A stretch of DNA of 64,000 nt. It comes from Chromobacterium violaceum ATCC 12472 (GTDB taxonomy: Bacteria; Pseudomonadota; Gammaproteobacteria; Burkholderiales; Chromobacteriaceae). A model generated the notes under the pieces. It made no database searches. It was not told where the DNA came from and saw only the letters and a program-made list of their open reading frames with translations. This document shows, piece by piece, positions 48,537 through 62,118 of the stretch. The DNA is taken from NCBI RefSeq assembly GCF_000007705.1, contig NC_005085.1:620001-684000 (forward strand), in the 5' to 3' direction. Within the stretch, counting starts at the first letter, position 1, and every line of letters begins with the position of its first letter. Both the position numbers and the translations under genes were made by a program.

Positions 48537-48557
48537 TGGTGCAGAGTCTCTCTCGAA
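48537..48557 (+). repeat. Candidate left attachment core (attL-like), imperfect copy of the tRNA-Leu 3' end
   Basis: The stretch contains TGGTGC, AGAGTC and CTCGAA in the same order and orientation as 62034-62056 at the tRNA 3' end, with two bases missing and three mismatched. AT content rises sharply immediately to the right. The imperfect match keeps confidence moderate. Confidence 0.5.
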
Positions 48558-48610
48558 AACATAACTCAATATATTGAAATTGTTGAATAATTTTTTATTT
48601 TAAAAATTAA

Positions 48611-48633
48611 ATACCAACAAATGTACCAACATT
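48611..48633 (+). repeat. Left arm-type integrase sites
   Basis: ATACCAACA (48611-48619) and GTACCAACATT (48623-48633), followed by GATGCGC. The same motif, including the trailing TGCGC, recurs near the right end (61872-61921). Arm-type sites at both ends are expected for a tyrosine integrase. Confidence 0.6.
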
Positions 48634-49282
48634 GATGCGCTTTTGGTCAAAGCGGAGCCTGGTTGTGCCCAAGCCGCGTGAAGGTCGGTAGCTTTTGAAG
48701 AGATCGCATTGGTTGTTTAACGTATTGAAATTATTTATTTTAATTTTTATCTGCTATTTCATTGAACCCGACAGAGATTGAGTTGAATTCGTAAGGCATT
48801 GATAATTATTAATTATTCTTTTTGTGATTTTATAGATGCCCCCGATTATGCCCCCGGAGACCAATTTTACCCATAGATTGAGTGCTATTAGTGAACAGGT
48901 ACTCTTGTTCGATTGAAAGGTTTGCTTTTCACTATAGGGTAATAGATTATATCAAAGTCAGGTCCAAGCACGTCTCTCAATCAGTGCATCAGGTGCTGTA
49001 GAATCAAATCGATTAATTTCTTCCTTGTGTCAAGGGCAGGTTTTGGTAGGCAGTCTCGATTGAGCGCTTGGTTATGCTGGTCAGGCATGTTGGTAGGTTT
49101 GCTTTTGTTGGTCTTCGACAGCGGCGGTTATCTTCATTGTTTAACCTGCCTAGTCGGCGAGTTGACTTGCATTATTGCCTACTAATCTGACAGATATTTA
49201 CCATGCAGTATAATCTCTGCATTAGATGCAGAAATTTTAACAATAGCACTGAACCTCGCTGAAAATACTTTATAAGGCTAGC
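48634..49282. other. AT-rich left end of the element, no gene seen
   Basis: No coding frame of quality is visible. ATGCCCCCG is repeated twice in direct orientation near 48835-48858 and may mark another recombination site. The rest is low-GC sequence with no clear promoter or RNA gene. Confidence 0.5.
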
Positions 49283-49879
49283 CTAGCAAGATGCATATTC
49301 AATACTTGTTTGGTCCTTGGAGTACATTCCTATTCGGGAAATCCTGCCATCGCTAGCAGATTTTAGAATTTTTACGATTCCTTCTTTTGTACAACTGACA
49401 GCTGTATTTTTAACGAGAAAGCCTTCTATGTTTTTCAAGTCTGCAATTGTAACTGCGGCATTAAGCGCCTCTGCGAATTGACGATTTTCTCTGCCTCGAT
49501 ACAATACCGCATATCTGAAGTCAATGTTCACGAAATCAATAATGCTAAGTAGGTTATGTTTTCTACAAAACTGAAATAATGTATTTACCCCTTCATGCAC
49601 TTTTTGCCGAAGTTCATCACGGTCGAATTTTCCTTCTTTAAATTCTATCAAATAGATGATATCCCCTTTCACAAATAGAGCATCAGGAGTTTTTTCTTTT
49701 TTCTCGATGCGATGGCTCGGCGAAATGTTGTAAACTAAATCGAAATTAAAAGCAGTTTCGCTGCATTCAATAAAAAATCTATTTGCATCGGTATTTTTGC
49801 TTAATTGGGTAATATCTTGCAGGGCATCTGGGTATGCCTCGCATAACTTATCAAACAATTTTTTTGCATCAGAACTCAT
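49283..49879 (-). CDS. PD-(D/E)XK nuclease-like protein, partner of the adjacent ATPase
   Basis: ATG 49879 gives 198 residues. A plausible nuclease core is present: Asp66 in 'KTPDALFVKGDIIYLIEFKEGKF' with Glu79-x-Lys81 on the next strand, the PD-(D/E)XK spacing, followed by a helix ('DRDELRQKVHEGVNTLFQF'). The assignment rests on this motif only. The start overlaps the stop of the ATPase gene by 11 bases, so the two are translationally coupled and probably work as one complex. AT-rich and foreign in composition. Confidence 0.7.
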   Translation of the reverse strand: MSSDAKKLFDKLCEAYPDALQDITQLSKNTDANRFFIECSETAFNFDLVYNISPSHRIEKKEKTPDALFVKGDIIYLIEFKEGKFDRDELRQKVHEGVNTLFQFCRKHNLLSIIDFVNIDFRYAVLYRGRENRQFAEALNAAVTIADLKNIEGFLVKNTAVSCTKEGIVKILKSASDGRISRIGMYSKDQTSIEYASC

Positions 49880-51113
49880 TATTATCTTCCACGATGTCCC
49901 AAAGTGGTTGTGCCAAGTCCTCAATGATTGCCCCAACATTCATGCTTAAGTCAATAAAATCAACATCGTCAGGATTTGCTATGCTTTTACAAGCTAAATA
50001 AAAGTTGGATTTTATACCGCTCACATTTGCATAGTAATGCAAAGCTTCAATCATATAGGGGCTGTGAGTAGTTAGAAGTATGTATACTCCAGCTTGATGT
50101 AGTTCGCAAATTATTTTCGCTAACTGTGTTTGCCATTTGGGATGAAGATTAATTTCGGGTTCATCCAAGACTAGTAATGAACCATCGCAAATGACCCCCT
50201 TTTTTACTAGCAAGTCAAGCACACCGATATTCTTAATGCCGCTTGCTATATTGTTCAGGCAAACCCTATAGCCTCCTTTGTCAAAGTAGAAGCTGTTTTG
50301 CGTTTCATCAAAAACCAAGCGTCCTTTGTAAATGTCAGCCAAGTTACTACTTCCACCTCTTACGAGAGTTGGGCTAATTAATTTCCTCGCAAGATCTGTG
50401 ATGTGAAATGGAAGACGTGGGTCGGAATCGTTTAAGTTAATTAAATGTGCGTATTGAAGTATTGATGCGCCATCGATGTAAGTGGCATCACCTAGCCCTA
50501 ACCCTAGACCTCCTGAATATATGCCATCGGTGATGATGCCATCGCTAAATTTTGCCGAAATTACAGTTGTTTCGCCATCATTTATTTCAAATGATGGTGG
50601 GCGAGAGTCTTGTTTCCTATCTATCTCACCGCCAAACTCAGACTGCATTAGGTCTGTAATGGATTCAAAAATATCATCCGACTCTGATAGGGAGTCAATT
50701 TCTCTTTGAATCCCATATAGCCGCGATTTGAGCTTAATAAGGGTTTCCAGTTTTTCCGGGTATGATTCTTCAAGCTTGTCTAATACGCCCCTTATCTCAT
50801 AAAGCGCATCATCTGGATCTGCCATGATATGATTAACGAATGAAAAAGACATCATTTGTCTAAGGCTGTCATGCTTTGTTAAATCAAAATTTCTTCTGAG
50901 CTCTGTAATGAAAAATCTAAGAGAATGTGAAGTTTTACGTCTAATTTTTTCTTTTCTAAACTGTGGGTATATTGAAAAGGCCTGTATAATTGAATAAACA
51001 ATTTTCCCAACAGTGCTCTTTCCCGAGTCATTTTCACCCGCAATAACCGTAAACCCATCTAGCAATATGCTGGTGCTTTTTATCTTCCCAATGTTCTCAA
51101 TTGAGATTTTCAT
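49869..51113 (-). CDS. AAA (ABC-type) ATPase, OLD/RecF-like, without TOPRIM domain
   Basis: This 414-residue protein has Walker A 'GENDSGKST' at residues 26-34, Walker B 'SLLVLDEPEINLHPKWQ' with Asp/Glu at about 317-318, and the switch histidine in 'LLTTHSPYMIEALHYY' near residue 351. A helical insertion lies between. This is the AAA15/OLD-like fold of many defence ATPases, but the C-terminal TOPRIM nuclease of OLD is missing; the next gene supplies a different nuclease fold. Two-gene organisation is like PARIS (AriA/AriB), whose effector is TOPRIM, so this would be a variant or a separate system. Confidence 0.8.
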   Translation of the reverse strand: MKISIENIGKIKSTSILLDGFTVIAGENDSGKSTVGKIVYSIIQAFSIYPQFRKEKIRRKTSHSLRFFITELRRNFDLTKHDSLRQMMSFSFVNHIMADPDDALYEIRGVLDKLEESYPEKLETLIKLKSRLYGIQREIDSLSESDDIFESITDLMQSEFGGEIDRKQDSRPPSFEINDGETTVISAKFSDGIITDGIYSGGLGLGLGDATYIDGASILQYAHLINLNDSDPRLPFHITDLARKLISPTLVRGGSSNLADIYKGRLVFDETQNSFYFDKGGYRVCLNNIASGIKNIGVLDLLVKKGVICDGSLLVLDEPEINLHPKWQTQLAKIICELHQAGVYILLTTHSPYMIEALHYYANVSGIKSNFYLACKSIANPDDVDFIDLSMNVGAIIEDLAQPLWDIVEDNNEF

Positions 51114-52117
51114 ATTTAAAATTCCTAATTTTGTTGATTCTATAGAAGTAGTTCTTGTTGTGTTCCAGAATAAAATTAGTTGTTTTATTGGGTTTGATAG
51201 TATCTATTTAAAATATTGCATATTCGATAGTGATGAATTGCTACCACATAATTGCATGTTAAAATTCGAGTGTTCGTGAAGGAGTATATATCACATCTTT
51301 GTAAAACTTATATGGAAGTGCGTGTTCCTTGTGGAGTCCTTGCTTCTTGGGACTACGTTGGTGTCTATCATACTGAACGTTTGTTCGCAATTCCATGTTG
51401 AATGTGGTCAGTTCGATCGATGAGTCATCGTTTCAGTCAAGATTTTTACAATTTTGCGAAGATCATGCCTCTGTGACGGTATTTATAGGGAGGAGAATTC
51501 ATCCGAAACCGTGGATTGGACTCTAAGTCCTTGTCCTGCAATGGCTTTTCATCCACGGCTTGTCCACCACCTCTCCCCCCGATTCCGTGGATGTTCCAGA
51601 AAACTCAATAAAATCAATGCCATGAAGGGAAGGGCGAATCCACCATTTCCACCACACTGGCCGACAAACCCGTGGATTAAATTTTAAGCAGCTGTCCGAA
51701 ACCGTGGATCGCCCCTGTCTTCCTTTTTCACTGCTTTCCTTCTCTATCTCTTTGTTTTTTATAAAAGAAGAAGAGAAGAAGAGGGGCGAAACCGTAAAAC
51801 GGCGATGTGGAAGAATCGGGGCAAACCGTGGAAGTGGGAGGCGAAACCGTGGATTTTTGAGGGCAAACCGTGGATGGCTTGTTCTCAACAATCAATGACT
51901 TAGGTGTGATGTAGGGGCTAATCCACGGGTTTTTTTCGCATCCTCCCACACCCAATGGCGCGGAAAGCGGCGATTTCCGGCCGTTCTCGCCGGCTTGCGC
52001 TTGCCAATGTCATATTTCATATAGGGAAGGGTTTGTTGTTTCGCAGTTTGAGCGGGGCAAAGCGTGACAGCCCACGCAAGGCGGGCTGTCGAGGGGATGG
52101 GGCGGGCGGTTTGAGGC
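51114..52117. other. Non-coding region with an iteron array, candidate replication origin
   Basis: No gene of quality is visible over about 1 kb between the ATPase start and the primase stop. The right half (about 51506-51934) holds repeated copies of AAACCGTGGAT and near-matches, listed separately, plus an AT-rich, strand-biased stretch at 51720-51780. The left half (51114-51500) is AT-rich without recognised features and probably contains the ATPase promoter. Confidence 0.65.
51506..51934 (+). repeat. Iteron-like repeats AAACCGTGGAT
   Basis: Exact copies at 51506-51516, 51699-51709, 51844-51854 and 51865-51875. Near copies lie at 51585-51592 (CCGTGGAT), 51666-51677 (one extra C), 51789-51795 (truncated) and 51823-51832 (ends GAA). 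Inverted near copies lie at 51551-51559 and 51921-51932. A polypyrimidine then polypurine AT-rich stretch at 51722-51782 separates two groups. In P4, the alpha primase-helicase binds iterons at ori and crr; adjacency to the primase gene here supports an origin role (inference). Confidence 0.7.
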
Positions 52118-54919
52118 TTAGGGCTGGACGTCGGGCGCGGCGTACAAGCCCAGCTTCTCCAGCTGCGCCAGGCTGATGGCGGTCAGATGGCCCTGGCGGC
52201 GGCCGTGGATGGTCTTCTCGACGCCATCGGCCAGCACCACCGGGCTTTGCAGCAGCTGATTCTTGAAGATGCGGCCGGTCTTCACCGGCAGCGCGTCGAA
52301 CTTGGCCCGTAGATGCGGCGCGGTGGAAAGATGGTCCATCACATGGTTCGGCCGGATGAACAGCGCCATTTCGGTGTGGCCATCGGGATGCTTCACCCGG
52401 TCCCAGCAGTGCGGGTAGTCATAGCGTCGGGCCTCCAGCTCGGACAGCAGGATTTCCATGATCCAGACCCAGGGCAGGCGGCTGCCGTCGGTGTCCACGA
52501 TGTGGCTGTTCATTTCTGCCAGCAGGTCTTCGATGAAGCTGCCTTGCTGCGGGTCGAGGTCGGCGAACTCGCACAGCAAGGCCCAGCTGCACAGCAGGGC
52601 GGCGTAGTTCTCCATCATCCGCCGCGCGGTGGCGTCGCCGGCCGGGGCGCGGCTGTGCCGCTCGCACACGCCCAGGTAATGGCGATGCAGATCGCGCAGC
52701 CGGGCCGGCTCGATGTCGGCGAGGAACTGCAACCACGGCCACAGCGGAAACACCGGCAGATCGTGCGGGATGATCACCCCTTGCCGCTCCTTCGACAGGC
52801 TGCTGCGGCATAGCTTGGATTGCAGGCTCTGCGCGTCCACCTCTTCGCCGGCCAGCAGCACCGGCGCGCACATCAGGTAGGGCGTCAGGCTGGCGCCGAC
52901 GCGGGTGAACTCGAAGCGATAGGTCGATTGCAGCAGCGCGTCGATGTCCGACAGCACCGTCTTCGGCAGCTTGGAGAATTCATCCCAGCCCACCGGCTGC
53001 GAGGTGAAGGAGACCGACGCGCGGCGGCGGTGGTCGGTTTTCAGCATCTGCCCGGACAGCACCTGAAACGCCAAGGTGGTTTGCAGGCTCTCCAGCAGCT
53101 TGGACTTGCCCGATCCCTTCTCGGCCTGCATCTGGAAATGCGGATAGAAGCCCAGCAGGTTCTTCAGATGGGTGCCCAAGCCCCAGACCAACACGATGGC
53201 GGCCGCATTGTCGCGGAAGGTGTCCTGATAGGCTTGAATCACCGTCCGCGCCTGTTGCTGCGTGCCGCGCGGGAAGGTCAGGTTGTAGTACAGGCATTGC
53301 TTCTGCGGCTCGACGAAATAGCAGTCTTGTCCCTCCTGCGCCGCCAGCGCGCCGGCCTTCCACGACAGGCCGACGAAGTTGACCACATCGCGCGCGCCCA
53401 GGTCGGCCGCCCGCTCCATCAGATTGACCAGCCGTTGGAACTGCGCCGGCTTCCAGATCGCGCCGAATCGCCCCTTCCACCATTCCAGGTTGTACAGCTT
53501 GTCGTCGGTGGCCACCTCGCGATGCAACACCGTGCCATGGCGCGCCAGCTGGGCGCTGATGCCGAACACCGTTTCCGGCTGATGGTCGGCCGCGCCGCTG
53601 ATGGTGGCCAGGTGGCTCTGAATGCGCAGCCGCGACAGGCTGGCCACGCGGAAGGAACACAGATCGCCCAGGGTTTCCGAGCGCTTGCCGTCGTCGTCGG
53701 TCTTGAACTCGTCTATGTATTGGGTGAAGTCCTCCTTCACCCGGAAGCGCCAGTACACCGCGAAGTCATGGCCAGGCAGCTGTACCCGCCGCGTCCCCTC
53801 CAAACGCTCGCCGCCGCCCGGCATGCCCGGCACCAGCCACGGTTCCAGCTTGCGCAAGCGCGCGGTCAGCTCGTCCTTGCCATGGCGCTGCAGCACATCA
53901 TTGATGTCCTCGCCTTCGTCCCATTCCTGCATGTCCACCAGCAAATGGCCGATGTCGGCGGCAATCAGCTTTTCCGATAGCCGCCAGGCGGCGGCCAGGC
54001 CCGGCCGCAAGCCGGTCGCCGGGTTGACCGGGTCGCTGTGGTCCAGCGCCACCAGCACCCGCTTGCCGCGCAAGGCGGTCCAGTCGATGCTGTCCACATT
54101 GCCGACGCCGCGCAGCACCAGCGCAGCCACATCGGATGACGCGCAGCACTCCACCGACAAGGCATTGATCGGACTTTCCACGATCACCACCATCCGCGCC
54201 CGCTTCAGCCGCGCCGGATCGCTGCACCAGCCGTGGCCCTCGCGCTCGCCCTGGCATTGCGTCTTCACGCCGCCATTCAAGGCTGGATTGACATAGCGCA
54301 GATCCACCGCCGCCAGCCGGCTGCCGCTGCGCACCAGGAAGGCGGCGGCCGGGCCGCCGTGGCCCACTTCGCCGGCCGCCACCTTGGCGCTGTGCCAATC
54401 ATTCCAGCCCAGCGTCTTGCACTGGATGGCGCGGCGGATCACCGCCTCGTCTATGCCTCGGCCGGCCAGGTAGGCCACGGCGGCATCGGCTTGAGCCAGG
54501 CAGCGCTCGGCGATGTAGTCGAGGGTGGACTTGCGCGCCGGCGCGGCCCTTTCCTTCATCGCCGGTTTCGGTTGCGGCATGCCGTACCAGTCGCCCAGCA
54601 GCCGCGCGGCCGCCAGCGGGGTGTCCAGCTCCGGCCGGCAATAGCGCAGCAAGTCGATGCAGCTGCCGCCGGCGTCGCCGCTCCAGTCCTTCCAGCCGCG
54701 GCCGTCGGCGAAGATCGACAGCGAGGCGCTGCTGTCCGGGTGATGCGGGCTGTGATAGTTGCCCTTGCCCTGGCGCTTCAGGTCCAGCCGGGCCGCCAGG
54801 TCGTACAAGTCGATGCTGTCCTTCAACTGGTCGAACCATTGGCCGAGCGCGGTGGACGAACCGCCAGACAAGCCGGGGGCGTCTCGCCCGGTGCGCGGGA
54901 GAGGGTTTCTAGCATTCAT
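52118..54919 (-). CDS. Primase-helicase with TOPRIM domain, functional analogue of P4 alpha
   Basis: This 933-residue protein has an N-terminal DnaG-type zinc-finger-like domain (about residues 35-95: 'LKRQGKGNYHSPHHPDSSASLSI', 'WKDWSGDAGGSCIDLLRYC') that lacks the usual zinc ligands. A TOPRIM domain follows ('MVVIVESPINALS' at about 245, 'VLVALDHSDPVNP' at about 290). The C-terminal half is DUF927-like with a P-loop 'AEKGSGKSKLLESL' at about residue 605. It probably primes and unwinds the element's DNA from the iteron region just downstream. It is the third gene of a leftward operon. Confidence 0.85.
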   Translation of the reverse strand: MNARNPLPRTGRDAPGLSGGSSTALGQWFDQLKDSIDLYDLAARLDLKRQGKGNYHSPHHPDSSASLSIFADGRGWKDWSGDAGGSCIDLLRYCRPELDTPLAAARLLGDWYGMPQPKPAMKERAAPARKSTLDYIAERCLAQADAAVAYLAGRGIDEAVIRRAIQCKTLGWNDWHSAKVAAGEVGHGGPAAAFLVRSGSRLAAVDLRYVNPALNGGVKTQCQGEREGHGWCSDPARLKRARMVVIVESPINALSVECCASSDVAALVLRGVGNVDSIDWTALRGKRVLVALDHSDPVNPATGLRPGLAAAWRLSEKLIAADIGHLLVDMQEWDEGEDINDVLQRHGKDELTARLRKLEPWLVPGMPGGGERLEGTRRVQLPGHDFAVYWRFRVKEDFTQYIDEFKTDDDGKRSETLGDLCSFRVASLSRLRIQSHLATISGAADHQPETVFGISAQLARHGTVLHREVATDDKLYNLEWWKGRFGAIWKPAQFQRLVNLMERAADLGARDVVNFVGLSWKAGALAAQEGQDCYFVEPQKQCLYYNLTFPRGTQQQARTVIQAYQDTFRDNAAAIVLVWGLGTHLKNLLGFYPHFQMQAEKGSGKSKLLESLQTTLAFQVLSGQMLKTDHRRRASVSFTSQPVGWDEFSKLPKTVLSDIDALLQSTYRFEFTRVGASLTPYLMCAPVLLAGEEVDAQSLQSKLCRSSLSKERQGVIIPHDLPVFPLWPWLQFLADIEPARLRDLHRHYLGVCERHSRAPAGDATARRMMENYAALLCSWALLCEFADLDPQQGSFIEDLLAEMNSHIVDTDGSRLPWVWIMEILLSELEARRYDYPHCWDRVKHPDGHTEMALFIRPNHVMDHLSTAPHLRAKFDALPVKTGRIFKNQLLQSPVVLADGVEKTIHGRRQGHLTAISLAQLEKLGLYAAPDVQP

Positions 54920-54928
54920 GGGGGTTCC

Positions 54929-55255
54929 TTAGAGAATTTGGCCGATTTCGGAGCAGGCGTGGACCACCTGCTGTTGCAGCGGGGCCAGTAGGCCGGCGAC
55001 GCGATTGGCCGGCAACGGCCGGTCCTCGGCATGGCGCAGCAGATCGAGCAGCCCTTGCAGCGTCTCGCTGGTGCCGGACAAGCGGCAGATGCCGCCGGAC
55101 ACCACGTCTTCGACCGATTCGCACAGGCCGGCCAGCTGAGCCACCGGCTCGCGCAAGGCGGCGTGTTCCGGCTGGGTGGCCAGTTGCTGCAGGAGGATCA
55201 GTTCGCGTTGGATGGCGGCGAGGGCCAGCGGGGCGAGAAGGGGCAGGGCGCTCAT
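54929..55255 (-). CDS. Small helical protein upstream of the primase gene (possibly DUF1484)
   Basis: The start ATG 55255 (MSALPLLAPLALAAIQRELILLQQL) gives 108 residues, mostly amphipathic helices. The spacing and 'CESVEDVVSGGICRLSGTSETLQGLLDLL' are reminiscent of DUF1484, but I cannot confirm. It overlaps the stop of the small upstream gene (ATGA) and ends ten bases before the primase start. A regulatory or replication accessory role is inferred from the operon. Confidence 0.65.
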   Translation of the reverse strand: MSALPLLAPLALAAIQRELILLQQLATQPEHAALREPVAQLAGLCESVEDVVSGGICRLSGTSETLQGLLDLLRHAEDRPLPANRVAGLLAPLQQQVVHACSEIGQIL

Positions 55256-55428
55256 ACGATCACCTCCACGGCGAAACCGGCGGCGGTGCGATGAATCAAG
55301 GCGCGTTGCCCCTGGGCGACCAGCAAAGCGGCGAGCGCGCGAGCTTGGGCCTCGTTGGGCAGCGTGGAAACGGGACGGGTAACTTGCGGAAATAGGGCGC
55401 GGATGGCGCGCAGGGCGATATGGGGCAT
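55252..55428 (-). CDS. Small protein at the start of the primase operon
   Basis: A 58-residue reading frame (MPHIALRAIRALFPQVTRPV to GFAVEVIV) begins after a strong GGGAGG site and overlaps the next start by four bases. It is basic and hydrophobic with 'LPNEAQARALAALLVAQGQRALIHR', a helix that could bind nucleic acid. No family recognised. The ribosome site and coupling are the main support. Confidence 0.6.
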   Translation of the reverse strand: MPHIALRAIRALFPQVTRPVSTLPNEAQARALAALLVAQGQRALIHRTAAGFAVEVIV

Positions 55429-55439
55429 GTTGAGCCTCC

Positions 55440-55700
55440 CTACTGAGCGTTAAGCCCGGTCCTCGTCGCCAAACGAGGGTGGCGGGCGCATGGCAGGGTT
55501 GGCGAACCGGCAGTAAGGAACCGGCATACCCGTAGGTATCCCCACCACGGCCCGCCATAGAAAAGGACGCACCAACGGTGTGTGACGGACGTAAAAATAG
55601 CCGCAATAGGCGGCTGTCCGCCTTACTGTTCAGGTCGCCAAACCCGGTCGCGCTATTGAACACGACGCGGTAATGGTGCGGCAATCGGATGGGGCTGTCA
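55440..55700 (-). ncRNA. Ash/P4-like leader region with attenuator-type structure
   Basis: Read leftward, this region matches from memory the conserved block upstream of replication operons in P4-like elements, sometimes annotated as an 'Ash family protein' (a frame with 'SHTVGASFSMAGRGGDT' runs through it). It contains a terminator-like hairpin (AGCCGC-CTATT-GCGGCT then ATTTTT; 55593-55615), a small hairpin ATACC-GGTAT (55526-55539) and a repeated GAACCGG (55504-55510 and 55518-55524). P4 uses such a leader for RNA-based immunity by early termination. Whether this one makes an RNA or a peptide is unresolved. Confidence 0.5.
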
Positions 55701-55703
55701 AGC

Positions 55704-55752
55704 ATGTGATTCACATATTGCGTTTGAGCGGTGCATTTCATCGGGATATAAT
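55704..55752 (+). promoter_or_regulatory. Promoter of the zinc-finger gene with upstream palindrome
   Basis: TTGAGC (55724-55729) and a perfect TATAAT (55747-55752) are separated by exactly 17 bases. Upstream is a palindrome ATGTGA-T-TCACAT at 55704-55716, a possible operator or activator site about 50 bases before the start of transcription. Confidence 0.65.
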
Positions 55753-55786
55753 GGCGCTGGATGGTTTGATTTAGTTTTGCTGTACC

Positions 55787-55812
55787 CAAGGCCCTGGCAG
55801 GGGCCTTTTTAT
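55787..55812 (+). terminator. Hairpin with T run between promoter and zinc-finger gene
   Basis: Arms AAGGCCC and GGGCCTT are followed by TTTTTATTTTT. It lies after the promoter at 55724-55752 and just before the ribosome site of the zinc-finger gene, so it would act as an attenuator rather than end an upstream gene. Confidence 0.75.
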
Positions 55813-55825
55813 TTTTGGAGCGGTG

Positions 55826-56221
55826 ATGAAAGAATTATTTGGCGATGTGGCATGTCCTAAATGTGGTAAAGCGGGAGGCGTTAAAATCAGGACGAGTCGC
55901 CCGATAACTAAAACCTTTGTCGAATACTATTTGCGTTGCAAACATTGCGAAGAAAAAATGAAAGCGGTTTATTCGATTGAAGGGAGTATTTGGCCAAGCA
56001 AGCTTTGGGATGAACAAAAAATACGTAGTGAATTTAAACCCTGGCAGGTGGTGGAACATATCGAAGAAATCTATAAGGTTTATGTTGAACGGGCTGGCGA
56101 GGCAAAAGCTAATATCGCTAGACTGAAAACTGAGCTGAAAGCCGCCAAGCTCGAAGCTCAACAGGTTGAAGAAACCTATGATTTATTGCTGAGTATCGGC
56201 AGTGAATATAAAGCTCAGTGA
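55826..56221 (+). CDS. Ogr/Delta-related zinc-finger protein with coiled-coil tail
   Basis: This protein of 131 residues begins at ATG 55826 after GGAG. Four cysteines (10, 13, 38, 41) frame 'IRTSRPITKTFVEYYLRC'. This matches the Ogr/Delta pattern CPxC...RTSRxITxT..E.Y..C, although the last pair is CxxC rather than Cx4C. The C-terminal half (about residues 75-125) is a coiled coil rich in Lys, Glu and Ala. It is lower in GC than its neighbours, on the opposite strand and convergent with the canonical Ogr/Delta gene. It could be an antagonist or a second activator. Confidence 0.75.
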   Translation: MKELFGDVACPKCGKAGGVKIRTSRPITKTFVEYYLRCKHCEEKMKAVYSIEGSIWPSKLWDEQKIRSEFKPWQVVEHIEEIYKVYVERAGEAKANIARLKTELKAAKLEAQQVEETYDLLLSIGSEYKAQ

Positions 56222-56266
56222 AACTTGAAGCGTAGAAATGGCCCGCCCTCCAGCGGGCCATTTTCA

Positions 56267-56548
56267 TTACTTCAAGACTCTGTGCTGAATCCGGCCGACT
56301 TGTACCGTCAGCGCCGGCGGCGGCGCGGGTTTGGCCAAACTAGACAGTGTGCGCAGCCGCTCGGGCGGAATCTGCGCGCCACCCTTGATCGGCTGGGCCA
56401 CGGTGCGCGGCTCGCTTTCCATCGTCTTGTACTGGTGGCAGCAGTCGTCGTTGCTGCAGTTGTAGTAAATCTCCTTGGCGGTGGCGGTCAGCATGCGGCT
56501 GGTCCGCACTCTCGACACCGCGCCGCACAGCGGGCAGGGAAAGGCCAT
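56267..56548 (-). CDS. Ogr/Delta-like zinc-finger late transcription activator
   Basis: This 93-residue protein has zinc cysteines 5, 8, 31 and 36 (CPLC ... CSNDDC) and the motif 'VRTSRMLTATAKEIYYNC', the hallmark of P2 Ogr and P4 Delta. Those proteins bind upstream of phage late promoters and recruit RNA polymerase. It is the last gene of the leftward unit alpA, Sid-like, capsid, ogr. In P4, Delta lets the satellite switch on helper late genes; a similar role is expected here. Confidence 0.92.
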   Translation of the reverse strand: MAFPCPLCGAVSRVRTSRMLTATAKEIYYNCSNDDCCHQYKTMESEPRTVAQPIKGGAQIPPERLRTLSSLAKPAPPPALTVQVGRIQHRVLK

Positions 56549-56560
56549 CTTCGATCTCCT

Positions 56561-57541
56561 TCAGTCCACGATTTCCACGTCTTCAATCAGCGCGCAGGCG
56601 GCCAGGTTCTCGACCACGTAGGCGTCTTCGCTGGAGTGGTAGAACAGCACGCTGTTGATGGCGGGGTCTTCCTGATAGCGGTAGCGCACGGCGTTTTGGT
56701 TGAAGTACAGCGACAGGTTGTCCAGGCGGGTAATCAGGATGCTGTCGCCGGGAAAGAAGGCGGCCGTCGCGGCTTGCAGGCCGCCCAGGCGCTGCTTGTG
56801 GAACACCAGATCGTCTCCCGGCTCGTTCGACTCGCACACCGCATCCGGCAGCAGGTCAGCGCCCACCAGTGCCACCAACTGCGGATCATCGCGCCAGGCC
56901 GGCGCAAGCAGGGTGTTGACCGCATGGCGCACCAGGCGGTGCAGGCTATGGAAACGCTGGCCTTCGCCGACGCGGATGCTTTCCGTGCAGGCTTGTGGCG
57001 CTTGCTCGCGGATCTGCTGCAGCCAGCCGACATTGACGTCTTCCAGTTGCGGATATTTGGCCCGGTCGGAGTCTGCGGCGCGCATCAGGCCGCGGAAACC
57101 GATCATCACCCGGTCCAGCAAGATGCGGCGCTCCAGCGTCTGCCGCGCGCGGGCTTCGAATAGCGCTTGGTCTTGCGTCTCGCTCATCCAGGCATCCAGC
57201 GTCTCGTAATCAAACGCTGCATCGAAGTTGGTCTGTCGGCAGAAGTATTGCGCCGGCTGCCAGATCTTTTGCGCCGGCTGGCGGGGATGGTGGTTGGTGT
57301 CCACCGTGGCGGCCAGCGTGCCGGCGATGTCGAAGTTTTGCGAACGGCCTTTGACGTTCGCCACGCCGAGAATGTTGATGGCGGACAGCAGCCGGCTATT
57401 GCTCTTCAACGCATTGATGCGGGCCTGCGCCTCCTTCGGTCCAGGGGCCGCATAGTGGCTGTCCTGAGCTTGGTGCGCGTCCATATGGCTGAAGTAGCGG
57501 CCGATGAAGTGGTCCAGGGCTTGGCGGGTCGTGTTTTGCAT
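56561..57541 (-). CDS. P2 gpN-family major capsid protein
   Basis: This 326-residue protein shows clear gpN blocks: N-terminal 'TRQALDHFIGRYFSHM', 'INILGVANVKGRSQNFDIAGTLAATVDT', 'QTNFDAAFDYETLDAW', 'LDRVMIGFRGLMRAADSDR', 'YPQLEDVNVGWLQQIREQAP' and 'FFPGDSILITRLDNLSLYF'. gpN is the HK97-fold shell protein of P2-like phages. Length is slightly below P2 gpN (about 357). Standard P4 satellites have no capsid gene and resize helper capsids; this element therefore brings its own shell subunit. It lies 14 bases after the Sid-like gene, so they are probably cotranslated. Confidence 0.92.
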   Translation of the reverse strand: MQNTTRQALDHFIGRYFSHMDAHQAQDSHYAAPGPKEAQARINALKSNSRLLSAINILGVANVKGRSQNFDIAGTLAATVDTNHHPRQPAQKIWQPAQYFCRQTNFDAAFDYETLDAWMSETQDQALFEARARQTLERRILLDRVMIGFRGLMRAADSDRAKYPQLEDVNVGWLQQIREQAPQACTESIRVGEGQRFHSLHRLVRHAVNTLLAPAWRDDPQLVALVGADLLPDAVCESNEPGDDLVFHKQRLGGLQAATAAFFPGDSILITRLDNLSLYFNQNAVRYRYQEDPAINSVLFYHSSEDAYVVENLAACALIEDVEIVD

Positions 57542-57555
57542 GATGGCGGTCTCGC

Positions 57556-58281
57556 TTAACGGTTGATCAGGGCTTGGTATTGCTCGTCGCGTTCGGCTTG
57601 ATAGCGCATGCGGGCGATGGGGTTGTGGTGCTGGCTGGCCGGCGTTGCCAGCGGCGGCAGCGGTTGGCTAAGCAGGGCCAGCAATGCGTCCGGCTCCGCC
57701 TGGGGAGCGGTTTGCAGCGCCTGTTGCAGCTCGCCGGGCAGCTGCGCGGCAAAGAATTCTTCGTGATTTCTGCGCAGCTCGGCGCGGCCGAACAGCCGCT
57801 CGATGCACGTCTTGGGGGCTTGCTCCAGCAGCAGGGCCAAGACCGGCAGCTGTTGCCCCCATTGGGCGATTTGGTCGTCCAGCACCGCGTCCCAATACTG
57901 GCGGCGCAGCGCGTCGCGTTCCTTGACCAGGGTTTGGCGCTGTTCGAACAGCGTCTCCTGCTGCATTTCCGCCAGAATCTTTTCTTCCTCGGCGATCTTC
58001 AGCGTTTCCTCGGCCAATTCCAGATTGGCCATTTCCTTGCCTTTCAGCTCGCGCACCGCCTTGGTGGGAATGCCCAAGCTCGAGCGCATCGCCTGGCGGC
58101 AATCCTTGCGCGCCTGCTCGGCTTCGCTGCGTAGCGCCTCGGCGGTTTGAACGCGGCGCGCGGCGTTGTCGGCCAGCGATTGCCAGGCGTTCAGGTCTTG
58201 CTCGAAAGCGGCCAGGCGTTCCGTCAGGCCGGCCACGGCGAAAGCGACGGTTTCTTGGGTGTGGGGGTTCTGGATATGCAT
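57556..58281 (-). CDS. Helical coiled-coil protein, candidate Sid/Psu-like scaffold or size factor
   Basis: This 241-residue protein is almost all helix, with a long coiled coil at about residues 20-135 ('VQTAEALRSEAEQARKDCRQ', 'ANLELAEETLKIAEEEKILA') and a C-terminal 'RMRYQAERDEQYQALINR'. In P4 the external scaffold Sid is about 244 residues and Psu about 190, both helical and next to delta. P2 gpO scaffold lies just before gpN. Position before a capsid gene plus length and fold fit Sid- or gpO-like function, but I see no diagnostic motif, and no gpO protease triad. Confidence 0.7.
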   Translation of the reverse strand: MHIQNPHTQETVAFAVAGLTERLAAFEQDLNAWQSLADNAARRVQTAEALRSEAEQARKDCRQAMRSSLGIPTKAVRELKGKEMANLELAEETLKIAEEEKILAEMQQETLFEQRQTLVKERDALRRQYWDAVLDDQIAQWGQQLPVLALLLEQAPKTCIERLFGRAELRRNHEEFFAAQLPGELQQALQTAPQAEPDALLALLSQPLPPLATPASQHHNPIARMRYQAERDEQYQALINR

Positions 58282-58311
58282 GTTCTGAGTCCGGGTGCGT
58301 TGATTGGGGTT

Positions 58312-58530
58312 TTAGGCGTGGCGCGCCGCGATGCGTCCAGCCATCCAGACATCGATTTCAGACGACAGCCAGGCCACGCTTTTACCGCCCAGCGGCACCG
58401 GGGCCGGAAAGCTGCCGCGCTTGATGGCGTCGTACACCGACGAGCGGGACAGGCCGCACGTAGAGATGACTTCCGGCAAGCGCAGAAAGCGCAGCGGCTG
58501 GGCGGTGAGCGAAGGGGCATTAGCGGTCAT
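58312..58530 (-). CDS. AlpA family DNA-binding regulator
   Basis: This 72-residue protein starts at ATG 58530 after AAGGA. The motif 'PLRFLRLPEVISTCGLSRSSVYDAIKRGSFPAPVPLGGKSVAWLSSEIDVWM' is the AlpA/MerR-like helix-turn-helix found in P4-like elements, where it controls excision or late genes. It heads the capsid-ogr unit and is preceded by the palindromic activator-type site. Confidence 0.93.
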   Translation of the reverse strand: MTANAPSLTAQPLRFLRLPEVISTCGLSRSSVYDAIKRGSFPAPVPLGGKSVAWLSSEIDVWMAGRIAARHA

Positions 58531-58589
58531 GGGGTTGTCCTTATCGTTTTGTCTGAATAACTGTGGATGCAATCGGACACGCCGATCAG

Positions 58590-58658
58590 CGAACGCAGTA
58601 TTTCAGAAATTTCAAATCGAGTTTGGCGGGCTTGTTGTGTGGAATCGCCACACAACAA
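58590..58658 (-). promoter_or_regulatory. Candidate Ogr/Delta-type late promoter upstream of alpA
   Basis: A perfect 11-base palindrome TTGTTGTGTGG-N5-CCACACAACAA (58632-58658) is centred at 58645. On the - strand AATACT (58602-58597) could be a -10, putting the start near 58590, exactly 55 bases away. Ogr/Delta boxes (TGT-N12-ACA) are centred near -55 in P2/P4 late promoters. Here TGT/ACA spacings are 11 or 13, not 12. Confidence 0.55.
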
Positions 58659-59164
58659 CAAAACTTGAAAAGCCGAAAAAACGCGGATTTGGCTATTGAC
58701 GACAGGCGAGGAAACGGAAAGCAGCGGGGCGATTTTTGAATAGCTGGACGGTATCGGACCAATATGGACGCAATCGGACATACTCGGCGGCCAATTTAAG
58801 CGGGAGAGGAGAGAGAAGGGCGGAAACGTCAGTCAGCCAAAACGGCGACTGCATGCATAGACTGCATGAAAACGCATGAATCAGGGCAGGGGAAAAACAG
58901 CGCGCCAGGCCATACGGCAAGGGCCTGGCGCAGGTTCATGCAGGTGCATGATTAGCGGCACATGAAGCGCGGGGGCGAGGCGGGGCTTCGATAGCGCGCG
59001 CTGGGGGTAAGTGAGTATTGGCAATGCATGCCGTGGTAGGACGTAACCCAAAGCAGCTGTTTCGGTGTGTTGAAAAAAACAAACTTGTAACGTTAGTCAT
59101 AGCTGAGGCCAAGAAGCAGCGAGAAGCACAAACGACTCTTTAATTGGATCAAGGGGTTGTAGAA
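58659..59164. other. Regulatory intergenic region with repeats
   Basis: No gene is seen. The motif GGA(T/C)GCAATCGGACA occurs at about 58563-58577 and 58765-58779. A nested dyad occupies 58863-58942, listed separately. Open frames on the - strand here lack motifs. Confidence 0.55.
58863..58942. repeat. Nested dyad symmetry with TGCATGAA outer arms
   Basis: Outer inverted repeats TGCATGAA (58863-58870) and TTCATGCA (58935-58942) enclose a perfect ten-base hairpin GCGCCAGGCC (58902-58911) / GGCCTGGCGC (58922-58931). Further GCATGA copies lie at 58874-58879 and 58946-58951. Could be an operator, a second replication site like P4 crr, or a transcription-blocking structure. Confidence 0.55.
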
Positions 59165-60436
59165 TTACAATTTTTCAAGATTAATCTTAAAGTTTATTTC
59201 TCTTTCAATGTTTTCAGAGAAGTCGATGAAACTAAATCCATTATTAGAGCAAACATGCTTAAAGCAATTCAAAAAATCACGATACTCTTGATCGTCAATG
59301 AAGCAGTGTGTGTCTTTACTAGAAAGCGGAACAATAAAAATATACAGGTAGCATGTAAGTCTAAATTCCCCAACCAGATATGGCAGTGTTGTATTGTCAT
59401 TATTTCTTAAGTGCAAAGTGATCTCAGGTCGGGTCGTAAAGAATGCAGCGCTATTCAATATCGCCACTTTGGGTAAAATATTCACTTCTTTCTGGTTTTT
59501 TATCCATTGAATGGTGTCTTCAAAATTACTTAAGTGCTTTGAATCGATTACGCTTAACGCGAATTTGCATAGGGCTTTGTAAAGATTCTGTATCTTTATC
59601 TTATTTCCAGTTTTAAAAGACACATTCTCCGGCATCTCGGCGTTATCATCGCCTGGATTGTTTTGTACGATGGCTATAGATAGATTGCCTTGTTCCGTGT
59701 AAGAAATTTCAAAATCTTTTCCTTTCAGTTTTGGAGGGGCGTTGGTTTTGTTTTTTACCCCATATAATGTCCTTGCCATGTCGTGATAATAAATAAAGTC
59801 TCTTTCAATGTTTTCATCAAAAAAATCATTGCATCTATCACACTCATCGTTCAGGATTAGGATTTTATTGCCGAGAGCCTCGGAGATCGCATGAGCTTCT
59901 TTGTTGAAGGTTATGTCAGGAATTTTATTATAACAAAACCTGCATACTCTATTAGCTTTTAAACCCTCGCCAATCTTTATCTTTTTGCCTTTGTCTAAAT
60001 CGAAAGTCACTATTTCATAGTTTTCCATCACGCCGCCAAATATAGATTTTAATTCACTTTCGCTGAAATCGTTTTGGCATCCATTCAGGCAATTTAATTC
60101 TTTCTCAAGTTCATACTGTTGTGCAGTCGTTAATTCTATGGGTGAGAGGGTAAAGAACCATTCACCAGGGTTTAGTTTATTGAATTGTGAGCCTAGCTGT
60201 TGAATCTGAGGTAGCACATTCTTGTATTTTGATATAAATCTCCCCAAATTTTCTTTGAACTCTTCAGTATTCTGATGCTTGTAATCCATTTTTATAGCTT
60301 GGCTTTTTTCTTCATACTTCGCACCGAATACCGAAAGAAAATCAATAGCTATCTTGCTGTGCTCTACAGCATAGCCAATATCAATAACTCCTCCTAATTG
60401 GTTGGTAGAGAAAAATTGAATTCTAAGGTGCTCCAT
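59165..60436 (-). CDS. HNH-type zinc protein of unknown function, candidate defence gene
   Basis: This 423-residue protein is AT-rich. It has a central HNH-like zinc module: Cys164 and Cys167 in 'VCRFCYNKIPDITFNKEAHAISEALGNK', with the AHAISE helix supplying the catalytic His, and a second pair near residues 199-202 ('DECDRCNDFF'). The N-terminal domain (1-150) and the C-terminal domain (about 225-423) match nothing I know. It lies between integrase and the capsid unit, where P4-like satellites carry variable defence genes. A nuclease that kills or blocks phage is an inference. Confidence 0.7.
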   Translation of the reverse strand: MEHLRIQFFSTNQLGGVIDIGYAVEHSKIAIDFLSVFGAKYEEKSQAIKMDYKHQNTEEFKENLGRFISKYKNVLPQIQQLGSQFNKLNPGEWFFTLSPIELTTAQQYELEKELNCLNGCQNDFSESELKSIFGGVMENYEIVTFDLDKGKKIKIGEGLKANRVCRFCYNKIPDITFNKEAHAISEALGNKILILNDECDRCNDFFDENIERDFIYYHDMARTLYGVKNKTNAPPKLKGKDFEISYTEQGNLSIAIVQNNPGDDNAEMPENVSFKTGNKIKIQNLYKALCKFALSVIDSKHLSNFEDTIQWIKNQKEVNILPKVAILNSAAFFTTRPEITLHLRNNDNTTLPYLVGEFRLTCYLYIFIVPLSSKDTHCFIDDQEYRDFLNCFKHVCSNNGFSFIDFSENIEREINFKINLEKL

Positions 60437-60662
60437 TGCTTACCTTTCTAAGACGTATAGTTTACGCGTGGGGCTGCGTAACAATTGATAGTGATGACAC
60501 AAGCAGCGTCGCCAGGAAATCCATTGTATTCATTATTTTGGTATATTAGTTCACGTGCAATAAGATAAATATGCCATTGATGTAGTTGGCAATGTGACTA
60601 TTTTGGGTGATTTAGGGTAAAGGTCTGCTCTTGGCCGGGTGCGGACATTTTTCTTTACGTTG

Positions 60663-61856
60663 CTAGTCAATACTGCTTTTTTGATGGCGACCTAAGAATT
60701 CAGCCCACCACTGCATCATTTTCCTGCGCTCTTCCAAATATTCCGCTCGATGGTAAGCAGCACGCACTTTGTTGCGCTCTGCATGTGCGAGCTGCTTTTC
60801 TATGATATCTGGATCAAAGCCTTCTTCGTTAAGAACTGTTGAAGCCAGAGCACGGAAGCCGTGAGGGGTCGCCGTGCCTTTGTAGCCCATGCGGCCCATG
60901 GCATAGCCAAGCGTGTTTTCGGACATGGGCTTCTTGAGGTCTGTCACGGCCGGGAAGAGCAGGGCGCTTTTGCCAGTCAGCGGCCGCAACTCCTTCAGCA
61001 GTTCCAGCGCCTGGCGCGATAGCGGTACAAGGTGAGGCTCGCGCATCTTCATGCGCTCGGCCGGGATGCGCCATTCTGCGCGTTCTTCGTCAAACTCTTC
61101 CCAGCGCGCGGCGCGTAGTTCGCCTGGGCGAACAAAGGTCAGCATCAGCAGGTGCATGGCAATGCGGGTCGGAATATAGAGCGGTTCGGCCGCCAGGCGC
61201 CGGTAGAACTCGCGGAGCTCGCCGCGCGGCAGCGCAGGGCGGTGTTCCACCTTCTTGGCACGTATCGCGCCTGTAAGGTCCGTTGCCGGGTTGTGGACGG
61301 CTCGGCCGGTCTGGATGGCATAGCGGATGACGGCGCTGATTCTTTGCAGCACGCGTTGGGCGGTTTCCACTGCGCCGCGTTTTTCTATCTTGCGGATGGT
61401 ATCCAAGATCACCGGTGCGGTTAGTTGGGAAACCGGCAGCTTGCCTAGGTCGGGGAAGGCGTCAGCCTTGAGGGAGTCGAGGATTCTGACTGCGTGGTCA
61501 TCGGTCCAGCGTGGCAGCTGTTTGTCGTACCACTCGCGGGCGACAATTTCGAAGGAATTTTCAACGGTGAGCTGCCGCTCGCGCTTCTGCTCTTTCTTGG
61601 CTGCGTTGGGGTCGGTTCCTGCTGCCAGCAGTTTTCGCGCAGCTTCACGCTTCTCGCGCGCGTCTTTCAGCGAAGTAGTGGGGTAGACGCCAAAGGCGAG
61701 GGTTTTCTGTTTGCCGTCGAAGCGGTAGGCCATGCGCCAGTACTTCGCCCCGTTGGGCATGACCCAAAGAAAGAGGCTGCCGCCGTCTGCCAACTTGGCA
61801 GGTTTTCCGTCTTCCCTGGGCTTGGCATTGCGGATGGCGGTGTCGGTGAGCGGCAT
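60663..61856 (-). CDS. P4-family tyrosine integrase
   Basis: The start ATG 61856 (MPLTDTAIRNAKPREDGKPAKLADGGSLFLWV) is the N-terminal DUF4102 arm-binding domain of P4-type integrases. The 397-residue protein has the catalytic first Arg in 'LTFVRPGELRAARWEEF', the second box 'HGFRALASTVLNEEG', His in 'QLAHAERNKVRAAY' and the nucleophile Tyr373 in 'RAEYLEERRKM'. It lies beside tRNA-Leu(CAA), transcribed away from it, and inserts or excises the element there. A longer in-frame extension toward 62063 runs into the tRNA and is rejected. Confidence 0.95.
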   Translation of the reverse strand: MPLTDTAIRNAKPREDGKPAKLADGGSLFLWVMPNGAKYWRMAYRFDGKQKTLAFGVYPTTSLKDAREKREAARKLLAAGTDPNAAKKEQKRERQLTVENSFEIVAREWYDKQLPRWTDDHAVRILDSLKADAFPDLGKLPVSQLTAPVILDTIRKIEKRGAVETAQRVLQRISAVIRYAIQTGRAVHNPATDLTGAIRAKKVEHRPALPRGELREFYRRLAAEPLYIPTRIAMHLLMLTFVRPGELRAARWEEFDEERAEWRIPAERMKMREPHLVPLSRQALELLKELRPLTGKSALLFPAVTDLKKPMSENTLGYAMGRMGYKGTATPHGFRALASTVLNEEGFDPDIIEKQLAHAERNKVRAAYHRAEYLEERRKMMQWWAEFLGRHQKSSID

Positions 61857-61871
61857 GTTGGCATTTCCTGC

Positions 61872-61921
61872 TGTTGGTATCAGCGTGATGGTATCTTCGT
61901 ACCAATATATATACCAACATT
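61872..61921. repeat. Right arm-type integrase sites
   Basis: Inverted copy TGTTGGTAT (61872-61880), GTACCAATA (61899-61907) and ATACCAACATT (61911-61921) followed by TTGCGC. They match the left-end sites at 48611-48633 and overlap the integrase promoter region, so integrase may repress its own gene. Confidence 0.6.
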
Positions 61922-61965
61922 TTGCGCCGGCTTTGCCTGGATGGTGCCGGACGGAAATGGACAAC

Positions 61966-61999
61966 AAAAAACCCGCAAAGCCTTGTGCTGTGCGGGTTT
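61966..61999 (-). terminator. Element-encoded terminator downstream of tRNA-Leu
   Basis: Arms AAACCCGCA (61969-61977) and TGCGGGTTT (61991-61999) are followed on the - strand by a T run (complement of 61966-61971). It ends transcripts of the tRNA, replacing the terminator at 48484-48513 that the insertion moved away. Confidence 0.85.
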
Positions 62000-62033
62000 C
62001 CTGGTACTTCTCGGACTCTCTCGGAGTTGTCGC

Positions 62034-62118
62034 TGGTGCCCAGAGTCGGACTCGAACCGACACGCCTTGCGGCGGGGGATTTTGAATCCCCTGCGTCTAC
62101 CAATTTCGCCATCCGGGC
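62034..62118 (-). tRNA. tRNA-Leu (anticodon CAA)
   Basis: This 85-base tRNA with an encoded CCA has acceptor stem GCCCGGA paired with TCTGGGC (one G-T). The anticodon stem GGGGA/TCCCC has loop TTCAAAA, giving anticodon CAA, which reads UUG. There is a long variable arm typical of leucine tRNAs, and the T loop is GTTCGAGTC. It is the same isoacceptor as E. coli leuX, the attachment site of phage P4. The integrated element abuts its 3' end, leaving the tRNA intact. Confidence 0.97.

Follow-up and report, generated by a model that had tools for sequence, protein, structure and literature searches.

The classic example of one genetic element reducing the capsid size of another is P4 with its helper P2; P4 integrates at tRNA-Leu. 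Capsid-forming phage-inducible chromosomal islands (cfPICIs) carry packaging genes of their own as well. Here we describe an element of about 13.5 kb, integrated in the tRNA-Leu(CAA) gene of Chromobacterium violaceum ATCC 12472, within a 64,000-nucleotide stretch of DNA (the window; positions 620,001 to 684,000 of NC_005085.1, part of one 4,751,080-base contig). It encodes AlpA, a remote homologue of the P4 size factor Sid, a divergent P2-type capsid protein gpN and an Ogr/Delta-type activator, in that order. We read it as an integrated P4-type phage satellite parasitising the P2-like phages of Chromobacterium, in which the Sid homologue and a capsid homologue comparable to Ccm of the satellite SaPIbov5 would co-assemble with helper gpN into small heads. 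For this reading as a whole we estimate a probability of roughly 60%. The identity of the element is well supported, and the satellite reading draws on comparison of its ends, its integrase, its primase, a helper-type cohesive-end (cos) site and a helper-type late-operon palindrome before alpA-sid-gpN-ogr.

The published systems are cited here from excerpts of the papers. P4-like satellites are spread across Enterobacterales (PMC7552001, PMC11389934). Of the four gpN positions, Sid contacts just one, which lies in hexamers (PMC7552001); Psu and Sid are described as lacking sequence homologues, and the occurrence of the Sid/Psu fold beyond P4 elements is treated as an open matter in the excerpts (PMC7552001, PMC11389934). 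In SaPIbov5, Ccm is 24% identical to the helper capsid protein, forms the pentamers of the small SaPIbov5 shells and makes no shells alone (PMC8569155). The Gram-negative islands PmCI172 and EcCICFT073 encode a capsid-like protein with a role described as undetermined in the excerpts, and PmCI172 makes small capsids (PMC6893505), while cfPICIs are satellites that produce their own capsids (PMC11389934). The components listed for P4-like satellites are integrase, alpA, delta, sid, psu, alpha and epsilon, and P4-like elements without Psu have been reported (PMC8628076). Measured against this list, the present element has the integrase (at a tRNA gene), alpA, delta and, remotely, sid; psu and alpha were not found. 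Because neither of these two was found, "P4-type" denotes here a way of working, and not membership in the described P4-like family.

Boundaries, gene order and recurrence of the element

The features that bear on this reading are the following.

48537–48548, no strand: left attachment (att) junction, TGGTGC/AGAGTC, the element-chromosome boundary, from empty-site comparison
56267–56548, minus: Ogr/Delta-type activator (PF04606, 68.2 bits; 43% identity to P2 Ogr)
56561–57541, minus: P2-family major capsid protein gpN, 326 aa (PF05125 Phage_cap_P2, 245.7 bits, profile positions 23–327 of 327)
57556–58281, minus: Sid homologue, 241 aa, helical (AlphaFold2 model, Foldseek and profile comparison)
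58312–58572, minus: alpA, excisionase/regulator (PF05930, 70.9 bits)
58634–58656, no strand: predicted Ogr-type late-operon palindrome, GTTGTG-N11-CACAAC, upstream of alpA; sequence GTTGTGTGGAATCGCCACACAAC
58974–58992, plus: putative cos site, the 19-mer GGCGAGGCGGGGCTTCGAT, with the P2/P4 cos core, within the block 58930–59007
60663–61859, minus: tyrosine integrase (PF22022, PF13356, PF00589; start taken at MPLTDTAIRNAK)
62034–62047: right att core, the tRNA end TGGTGCCCAGAGTC, from empty-site comparison
62034–62118, minus: tRNA-Leu(CAA), the integration site (ARAGORN and empty-site comparison)

The ends were set from empty sites in four relatives (G004, G006, G008 and G017), in which the same left flank joins the tRNA-Leu end directly; the window matches this flank up to 48536. 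The two junctions agree almost exactly with the element coordinates in an initial annotation made from the sequence alone. The genes named there (integrase, AlpA, capsid protein, Ogr/Delta and Toprim primase) are all open, stand in the order given and are confirmed by Pfam. The cos site, the palindrome, a second, plus-strand Ogr-like open reading frame (ORF) and two cargo loci had been overlooked. The integrase scores 315 bits against NCBIfam PRK09692, under the cut-off of 434.

Of the 61 genomes searched, eight encode the 241-aa protein, all of them among the 19 of the genus, at 12 places including the window. We examined stretches of 10.4–20 kb around the other 11 places (L014–L024). In eight of them (L014–L021) the gene order is alpA, 241-aa gene, gpN, ogr, and the products are 70–97% identical to those of the window; in L015 the match to Ogr is limited to its first 31 residues. 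The window included, there are nine gpN copies in 7 of the 19 Chromobacterium genomes. The unit whose recurrence the initial annotation had proposed to check is therefore present at eight further loci in six other genomes, and its gene order is not due to chance; recurrence and purifying selection together rule out a chance cluster of unrelated genes. The insertion site is tRNA-Leu(CAA) in four of the 11 stretches and tRNA-Arg(CCT) in five, and no tRNA lies in the stretches L017 and L019. Identity to the window's integrase is 80–98% in L014–L017 and L020 and 47–49% in the five tRNA-Arg loci. The remaining three stretches lack gpN: the 241-aa gene is truncated in L022 and L023, and L024 carries, besides an insertion sequence and a HAD-like ORF, a distant form of it.

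One copy, L015, has a cos 12-mer with one mismatch, the shortened ogr match and no primase match, and is probably decaying. Its genome, G015, contains a P2-like prophage and a second, fuller copy of the element (L017) as well.

The Sid homologue and signals shared with P2-like prophages

The 241-aa protein has no direct sequence match to Sid, and its homology is remote, by fold and profile. Its AlphaFold2 model (predicted local distance difference test score 78.4) gave P4 Sid (7jw1_E) as the first Foldseek match, with template-modelling (TM) scores of 0.64/0.66 and an E-value of 0.16. When the Sid-family profile was compared by hhalign, P4 Sid ranked first of 160 (score 35.3 versus 18.9 for the next, over 222 columns) and P4 Psu ranked 87 of 160; the Psu family was not among the Pfam matches of the ten element proteins scanned. 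The median ratio of nonsynonymous to synonymous substitution rates (dN/dS) among the satellite copies of this protein was 0.237. The protein is thus a remote homologue of P4 Sid, the size factor of the P4-like component list.

A gpO-derived scaffold in place of Sid was considered and rejected: a gpO profile found nothing, and three gpO controls scored below Sid. The head maturation protease family phrog_595 gave one weak match (E 0.037), in a helical stretch.

The element was compared at the DNA level with one P2-like prophage from each of eight genomes of the genus and with the Burkholderia P2-like phages KS14 and KS5. A non-coding block at 58930–59007 is 75–93% identical in 8/8 prophages; the other DNA matches to the prophages and KS phages were gpN, int, primase, the tRNA gene and short near-chance ones. 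Within the block lies the putative cos site. The cohesive end of P2 and P4 is 19 bases long (GGCGAGGCGGGGAAAGCAC), and its first 12 bases, GGCGAGGCGGGG, are the 12-mer that we followed. The 19-mer is the single match within three mismatches in the window, where 0.08 are expected. Exact copies of the 12-mer occur in the window, in 10 of the 11 related stretches (one mismatch in L015) and in six of the eight prophages, where they lie 0.2–3.1 kb past the end of the portal gene; the G006 prophage has a cos variant, and the G014 prophage was matched by blastn only. The element thus appears to share its cos site with the P2-like prophages of the genus.

The second signal is the predicted Ogr-type palindrome. 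In the window it is the sole match within three mismatches (none found in it; 0.03 expected). It is exact in 10 of the 11 related loci, 62–125 bases away from where the alpA match starts; in L024 it has one mismatch and lies at 62 bases. Since the pattern was picked after viewing the sequences, these satellite counts are not independent, and the prophage positions are the stronger test. There, 24 sites with at most one mismatch were found in 8/8 prophages, against 0.065 expected per mononucleotide-shuffled sequence. All but one, a further site in G007, stand at late-operon starts: in the terminase-scaffold gap (8/8), just before V (7/8) and just before FI (8/8), the same three operon starts that carry the annotated activator sites of P2. 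KS5 has three sites and KS14 none. Both the packaging and the timing of the element are linked to P2-like helpers by these two signals, and the P2-like helper first proposed from gene content is now indicated by DNA.

Full P2-like prophages (gpN of 471–500 bits, with gpO) were found in 8 of the 19 genus genomes; in G016, one of three prophage copies has gpN in two pieces. Three of the seven genomes with satellite gpN also hold such a prophage (G003, G007 and G015). The window's own genome does not, having no gpO and no gpN other than that of the satellite; a helper prophage in the same strain, suggested as a check at the outset, is therefore missing, which qualifies the initial interpretation.

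Relatives without gpN place the Sid homologue in a wider setting. A Sid-family profile that includes two distant members, run on a sample of 399 genomes of the order, found the family in four genomes besides that of the window: G024, G057 (three loci), G343 and G146, the last being itself a member of the profile. AlpA adjoins the Sid homologue in all six loci (L180–L184 and L085) and in L024. The gpN profile found none in these seven loci; its sole match was in G057, where it picked out the P2-like prophage L185. In five of the six (L180–L183 and L085), a cos-like 12-mer with one mismatch lies within 0.6 kb of alpA, single hits of this kind being near chance (0.23 expected in 16 kb) and L180 having two more elsewhere. 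The 12-mer is exact in L024, and no cos-like 12-mer was found in L184, a 3.2-kb contig. The palindrome occurs within two mismatches in L180–L183, L085 and L024 (5/5 of the order loci examined), and a primase of the same family occurs in L180 (82%) and L181 (70%). The common backbone is cos, palindrome, alpA, sid and ogr, often with a KS5/KS14-type primase. Given seven related alpA-sid loci without gpN, gpN looks like an insertion into a P4-type backbone in the Chromobacterium branch. The order loci suggest a group of Sid-bearing satellites outside Enterobacterales.

In L180, a HAD-like ORF fills the slot between sid and ogr. ORFs of about 130 aa starting MSKWI(G/A)VDLDGTLAEV follow sid in L024 (7948–8346) and L180 (10366–10763), where gpN sits in Chromobacterium; from this motif we take them to be HAD-like.

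The capsid protein and its possible role

The satellite gpN sits between sid and ogr, with gaps of 14 and 12 bases. Its family profile aligns to residues 1–343 of 357 of the P2 gpN chain 7jw1_A (213 bits). Satellite gpN is 31–36% identical to the gpNs of genus prophages and 33–35% to those of KS5/KS14. In a 200-genome sample of the order, the nine gpN genes besides the window's all stand beside gpO and score 473–507 bits, whereas the window's gpN scores 245 bits and has no gpO beside it. In a FastTree phylogeny, a branch of 1.19 substitutions per site parts the satellite gpNs from 11 phage gpNs (support 1.0). The median dN/dS was 0.184 (36 pairs, nine copies), and 49 of the 81 residues invariant in the 11 phage gpNs are retained in all nine satellite copies. 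The protein is under purifying selection with these residues kept, and is therefore kept as a working protein.

The differences lie at specific positions. The P4 procapsid study places the sir mutations of gpN at residues 183–224 and the cleavage between residues 31 and 32 (PMC7552001). Where gpO cleaves, 11/11 phage gpNs have F31 and V33, and 9/9 satellite gpNs have other residues in their place. Residue 206 is R in 9/9 satellites and in no phage compared, 9/11 phages having D. In 9/9 satellite gpNs, an A-domain stretch that starts with DKYFP or DKLFP has given way to a shorter, different sequence, and part of the sir loop is missing, a deletion also present in KS5.

Among viral contigs, L166 (9893–10900) is the sole gpN of 81 places that lies away from a contig edge and has no gpO match closer than 3 kb. 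This locus may encode a divergent scaffold.

We searched the element and the 11 related stretches by tblastn (E 0.01) with 20 P2 and KS14 proteins: portal, large and small terminase, scaffold, capsid, head completion, ogr, int, A and tail proteins (six of P2 and one of KS14). Only gpN and Ogr matched in the element. Portal, terminase, scaffold and the tested tail proteins had no match in the element or in the 11 stretches, nor did a gpO profile built from nine phages. The absence of portal, terminase and tail genes, noted initially, thus holds for the proteins tested, and the remnants of such genes that would point to a former prophage did not appear. No lysis genes turned up in general family scans, which were the only search that covered them. 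As gpO, portal and terminase all lack a match, gpN is expected to need a helper to produce a filled head.

On our reading, an active P2-like phage would, through its Ogr, turn on the satellite operon along with its own late operons. AlpA and Int would excise the element, and the primase would replicate it. The helper terminase would cut the shared cos and fill heads using the helper's portal, scaffold-protease and tail. Two steps are less certain: the Sid homologue would cage hexamers of helper gpN, and the divergent satellite gpN would join the same shell beside helper gpN, as Ccm does in SaPIbov5, pentamers being its likeliest place. The contacts of Sid are confined to hexamers, so a pentamer position of satellite gpN would be compatible with Sid binding. 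Small heads would be favoured, fitting 13.5 kb and excluding the helper genome. The role of gpN in this scheme is proposed by analogy. The initial annotation had seen a mixed strategy of supplying shell subunits and borrowing helper packaging; the borrowing is supported, the subunit role is inferred, and the nearest strategy is that of SaPIbov5 Ccm and not that of cfPICIs. A more specific version is tentative, at somewhat less than even odds. Here two size-control tools would work together, an external Sid cage on helper gpN hexamers and the element's own gpN as a dedicated (pentamer) subunit lacking the protease cleavage residues, in a mosaic two-gene capsid; the satellites would form a Sid-bearing group outside Enterobacterales with a sid-ogr slot that swaps gpN and other genes.

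Alternatively, satellite gpN alone might make the shell, using helper gpO, portal and terminase, with the Sid homologue caging satellite gpN; the element would then be a stripped-down capsid-forming satellite. The adjoining of gpN and sid in one operon in all nine gpN-bearing loci is consistent with this, as is the alignment of most of gpN to P2 gpN under purifying selection. We nevertheless consider it unlikely, given the lack of a gpO-like scaffold or protease match with the P2/KS14 proteins, the changes at F31/V33, residue 206 and the A-domain stretch in all nine copies, and the presence of Sid homologues in loci without gpN.

Some of the same changes could mean that satellite gpN is a dominant-negative decoy that cuts helper yield; the satellite DNA would then, like that of P4, travel in shells made of helper gpN, with Sid as the only size determinant. 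The lost cleavage residues and A-domain stretch could stall maturation, and Sid-bearing relatives do without gpN. Purifying selection, the 49 of 81 phage-invariant residues kept and the place of gpN in an operon with sid, downstream of the palindrome, speak against a decoy and make it quite improbable.

We reject the alternative of a P2-like prophage that decayed by losing the majority of its genes: the element's primase, gpN and ogr are of P2-like type, but the same compact gene order stands at two tRNA sites in seven genomes under purifying selection, satellite gpN forms its own well-separated clade, no portal, terminase, scaffold or tested tail protein matched, and Sid-bearing relatives without gpN share a similar backbone.

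Remaining genes and relation to known satellites

The other genes of the element are listed here.

49283–51113, minus: cargo pair, an AAA ATPase (414 aa; PF13304, 73.4 bits) and a 218-aa ORF
52118–54919, minus: CHC2/Toprim primase, 933 aa (PF13362, 73.5 bits; phrog_5629, 1028.5 bits)
54929–55255, minus: small ORF of 108 aa, just upstream of the primase; same position in 7/8 gpN-bearing relatives
55252–55428, minus: small ORF of 58 aa; same position in 7/8 gpN-bearing relatives
55823–56221, plus: second Ogr-like zinc-finger ORF (PF04606, 24.6 bits, below the cut-off of 26.3)
59165–60436, minus: HNH-nuclease-like cargo gene, 423 aa (PF14279, 33.8 bits)

The primase is 46–49% identical to those of Burkholderia P2-like phages. 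The primase-helicase of the initial annotation stands as a Toprim primase; by phrog_5629 and identity it is of the KS5/KS14 type and is not identified as P4 alpha, P4 being absent from the 20 phage records that it matched. Among the eight gpN-bearing relatives, it is 90–98% identical over nearly its full length in four (L014, L017, L018 and L021), matches by its first 37 residues only in L016 and its first 19 only in L020, and has no match in L015 or L019. These copies appear to have swapped replication modules. The two small ORFs matched no PHROG family. The second Ogr-like ORF is divergent and varies strongly among copies (83% identity in L017, 27–36% in three others); it is possibly a regulator opposing Ogr.

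The HNH-type gene, between int and cos, had no match in the 11 related stretches and no PADLOC match, and its position looks like a variable cargo slot. The cargo pair, at the end far from int, likewise had no match in these stretches. The PADLOC models nearest to its ATPase are HEC-02A (6.7e-31) and PD-T4-4_A (2.7e-30), and the pair looks like anti-phage cargo. A nuclease-like stretch, IEFKEGK, was seen by eye in the 218-aa ORF.

Every part of the element has precedent. The literature matches listed, whose coverage is partial, included neither a P4-type satellite that carries gpN nor a homologue of Sid from outside Enterobacterales. Chromobacterium and related genera now provide a Sid homologue, accompanied by cos and promoter signals of the helper type. 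The Sid-bearing relatives without gpN offer a natural before-and-after comparison, and strains that hold both satellite and helper make the gain and use of the capsid gene directly testable.

The element resembles P4 in its tyrosine integrase with an arm-binding domain, AlpA, a Sid homologue, a Delta/Ogr gene after sid, a primase and a P2-type cos. It differs in having its own gpN, no Psu found and another primase family; its Ogr/Delta-type activator has 93 aa, versus 166 aa for P4 Delta, and its length is about 13.5 kb, versus 11.6 kb. In addition, alpA and sid run in the same direction in the element and are divergent in P4, and the element's cos lies beside alpA. KS5 and KS14 share the primase family and a gpN at the identity given above, and KS5 the sir-loop deletion, but they are complete phages with head, tail and lysis genes. 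Whereas cfPICIs supplement the capsid protein with other head and packaging genes, the present element gave no portal, terminase or scaffold-protease match to the P2/KS14 queries and, the size factor aside, has gpN as its one identified virion gene.

PmCI172 and EcCICFT073 are likewise Gram-negative satellites with a capsid-like protein, a likeness by description in the excerpts only; for PmCI172, the excerpts identify no Sid-like protein and describe a Mu-like resident prophage (PMC6893505). The closest parallel for the capsid gene is SaPIbov5, likewise a satellite of the cos type, whose Ccm is a divergent homologue of the helper capsid protein that stands alone; the element's gpN, too, is such a homologue without the rest of the head operon. 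The excerpts describe no Sid in SaPIbov5 (PMC8569155), whereas gpN here accompanies a Sid homologue, and co-assembly is proven for Ccm and inferred for this gpN. In one genus, a Sid-bearing satellite also has a capsid protein, and thereby joins two strategies known apart, that of Sid and that of Ccm.

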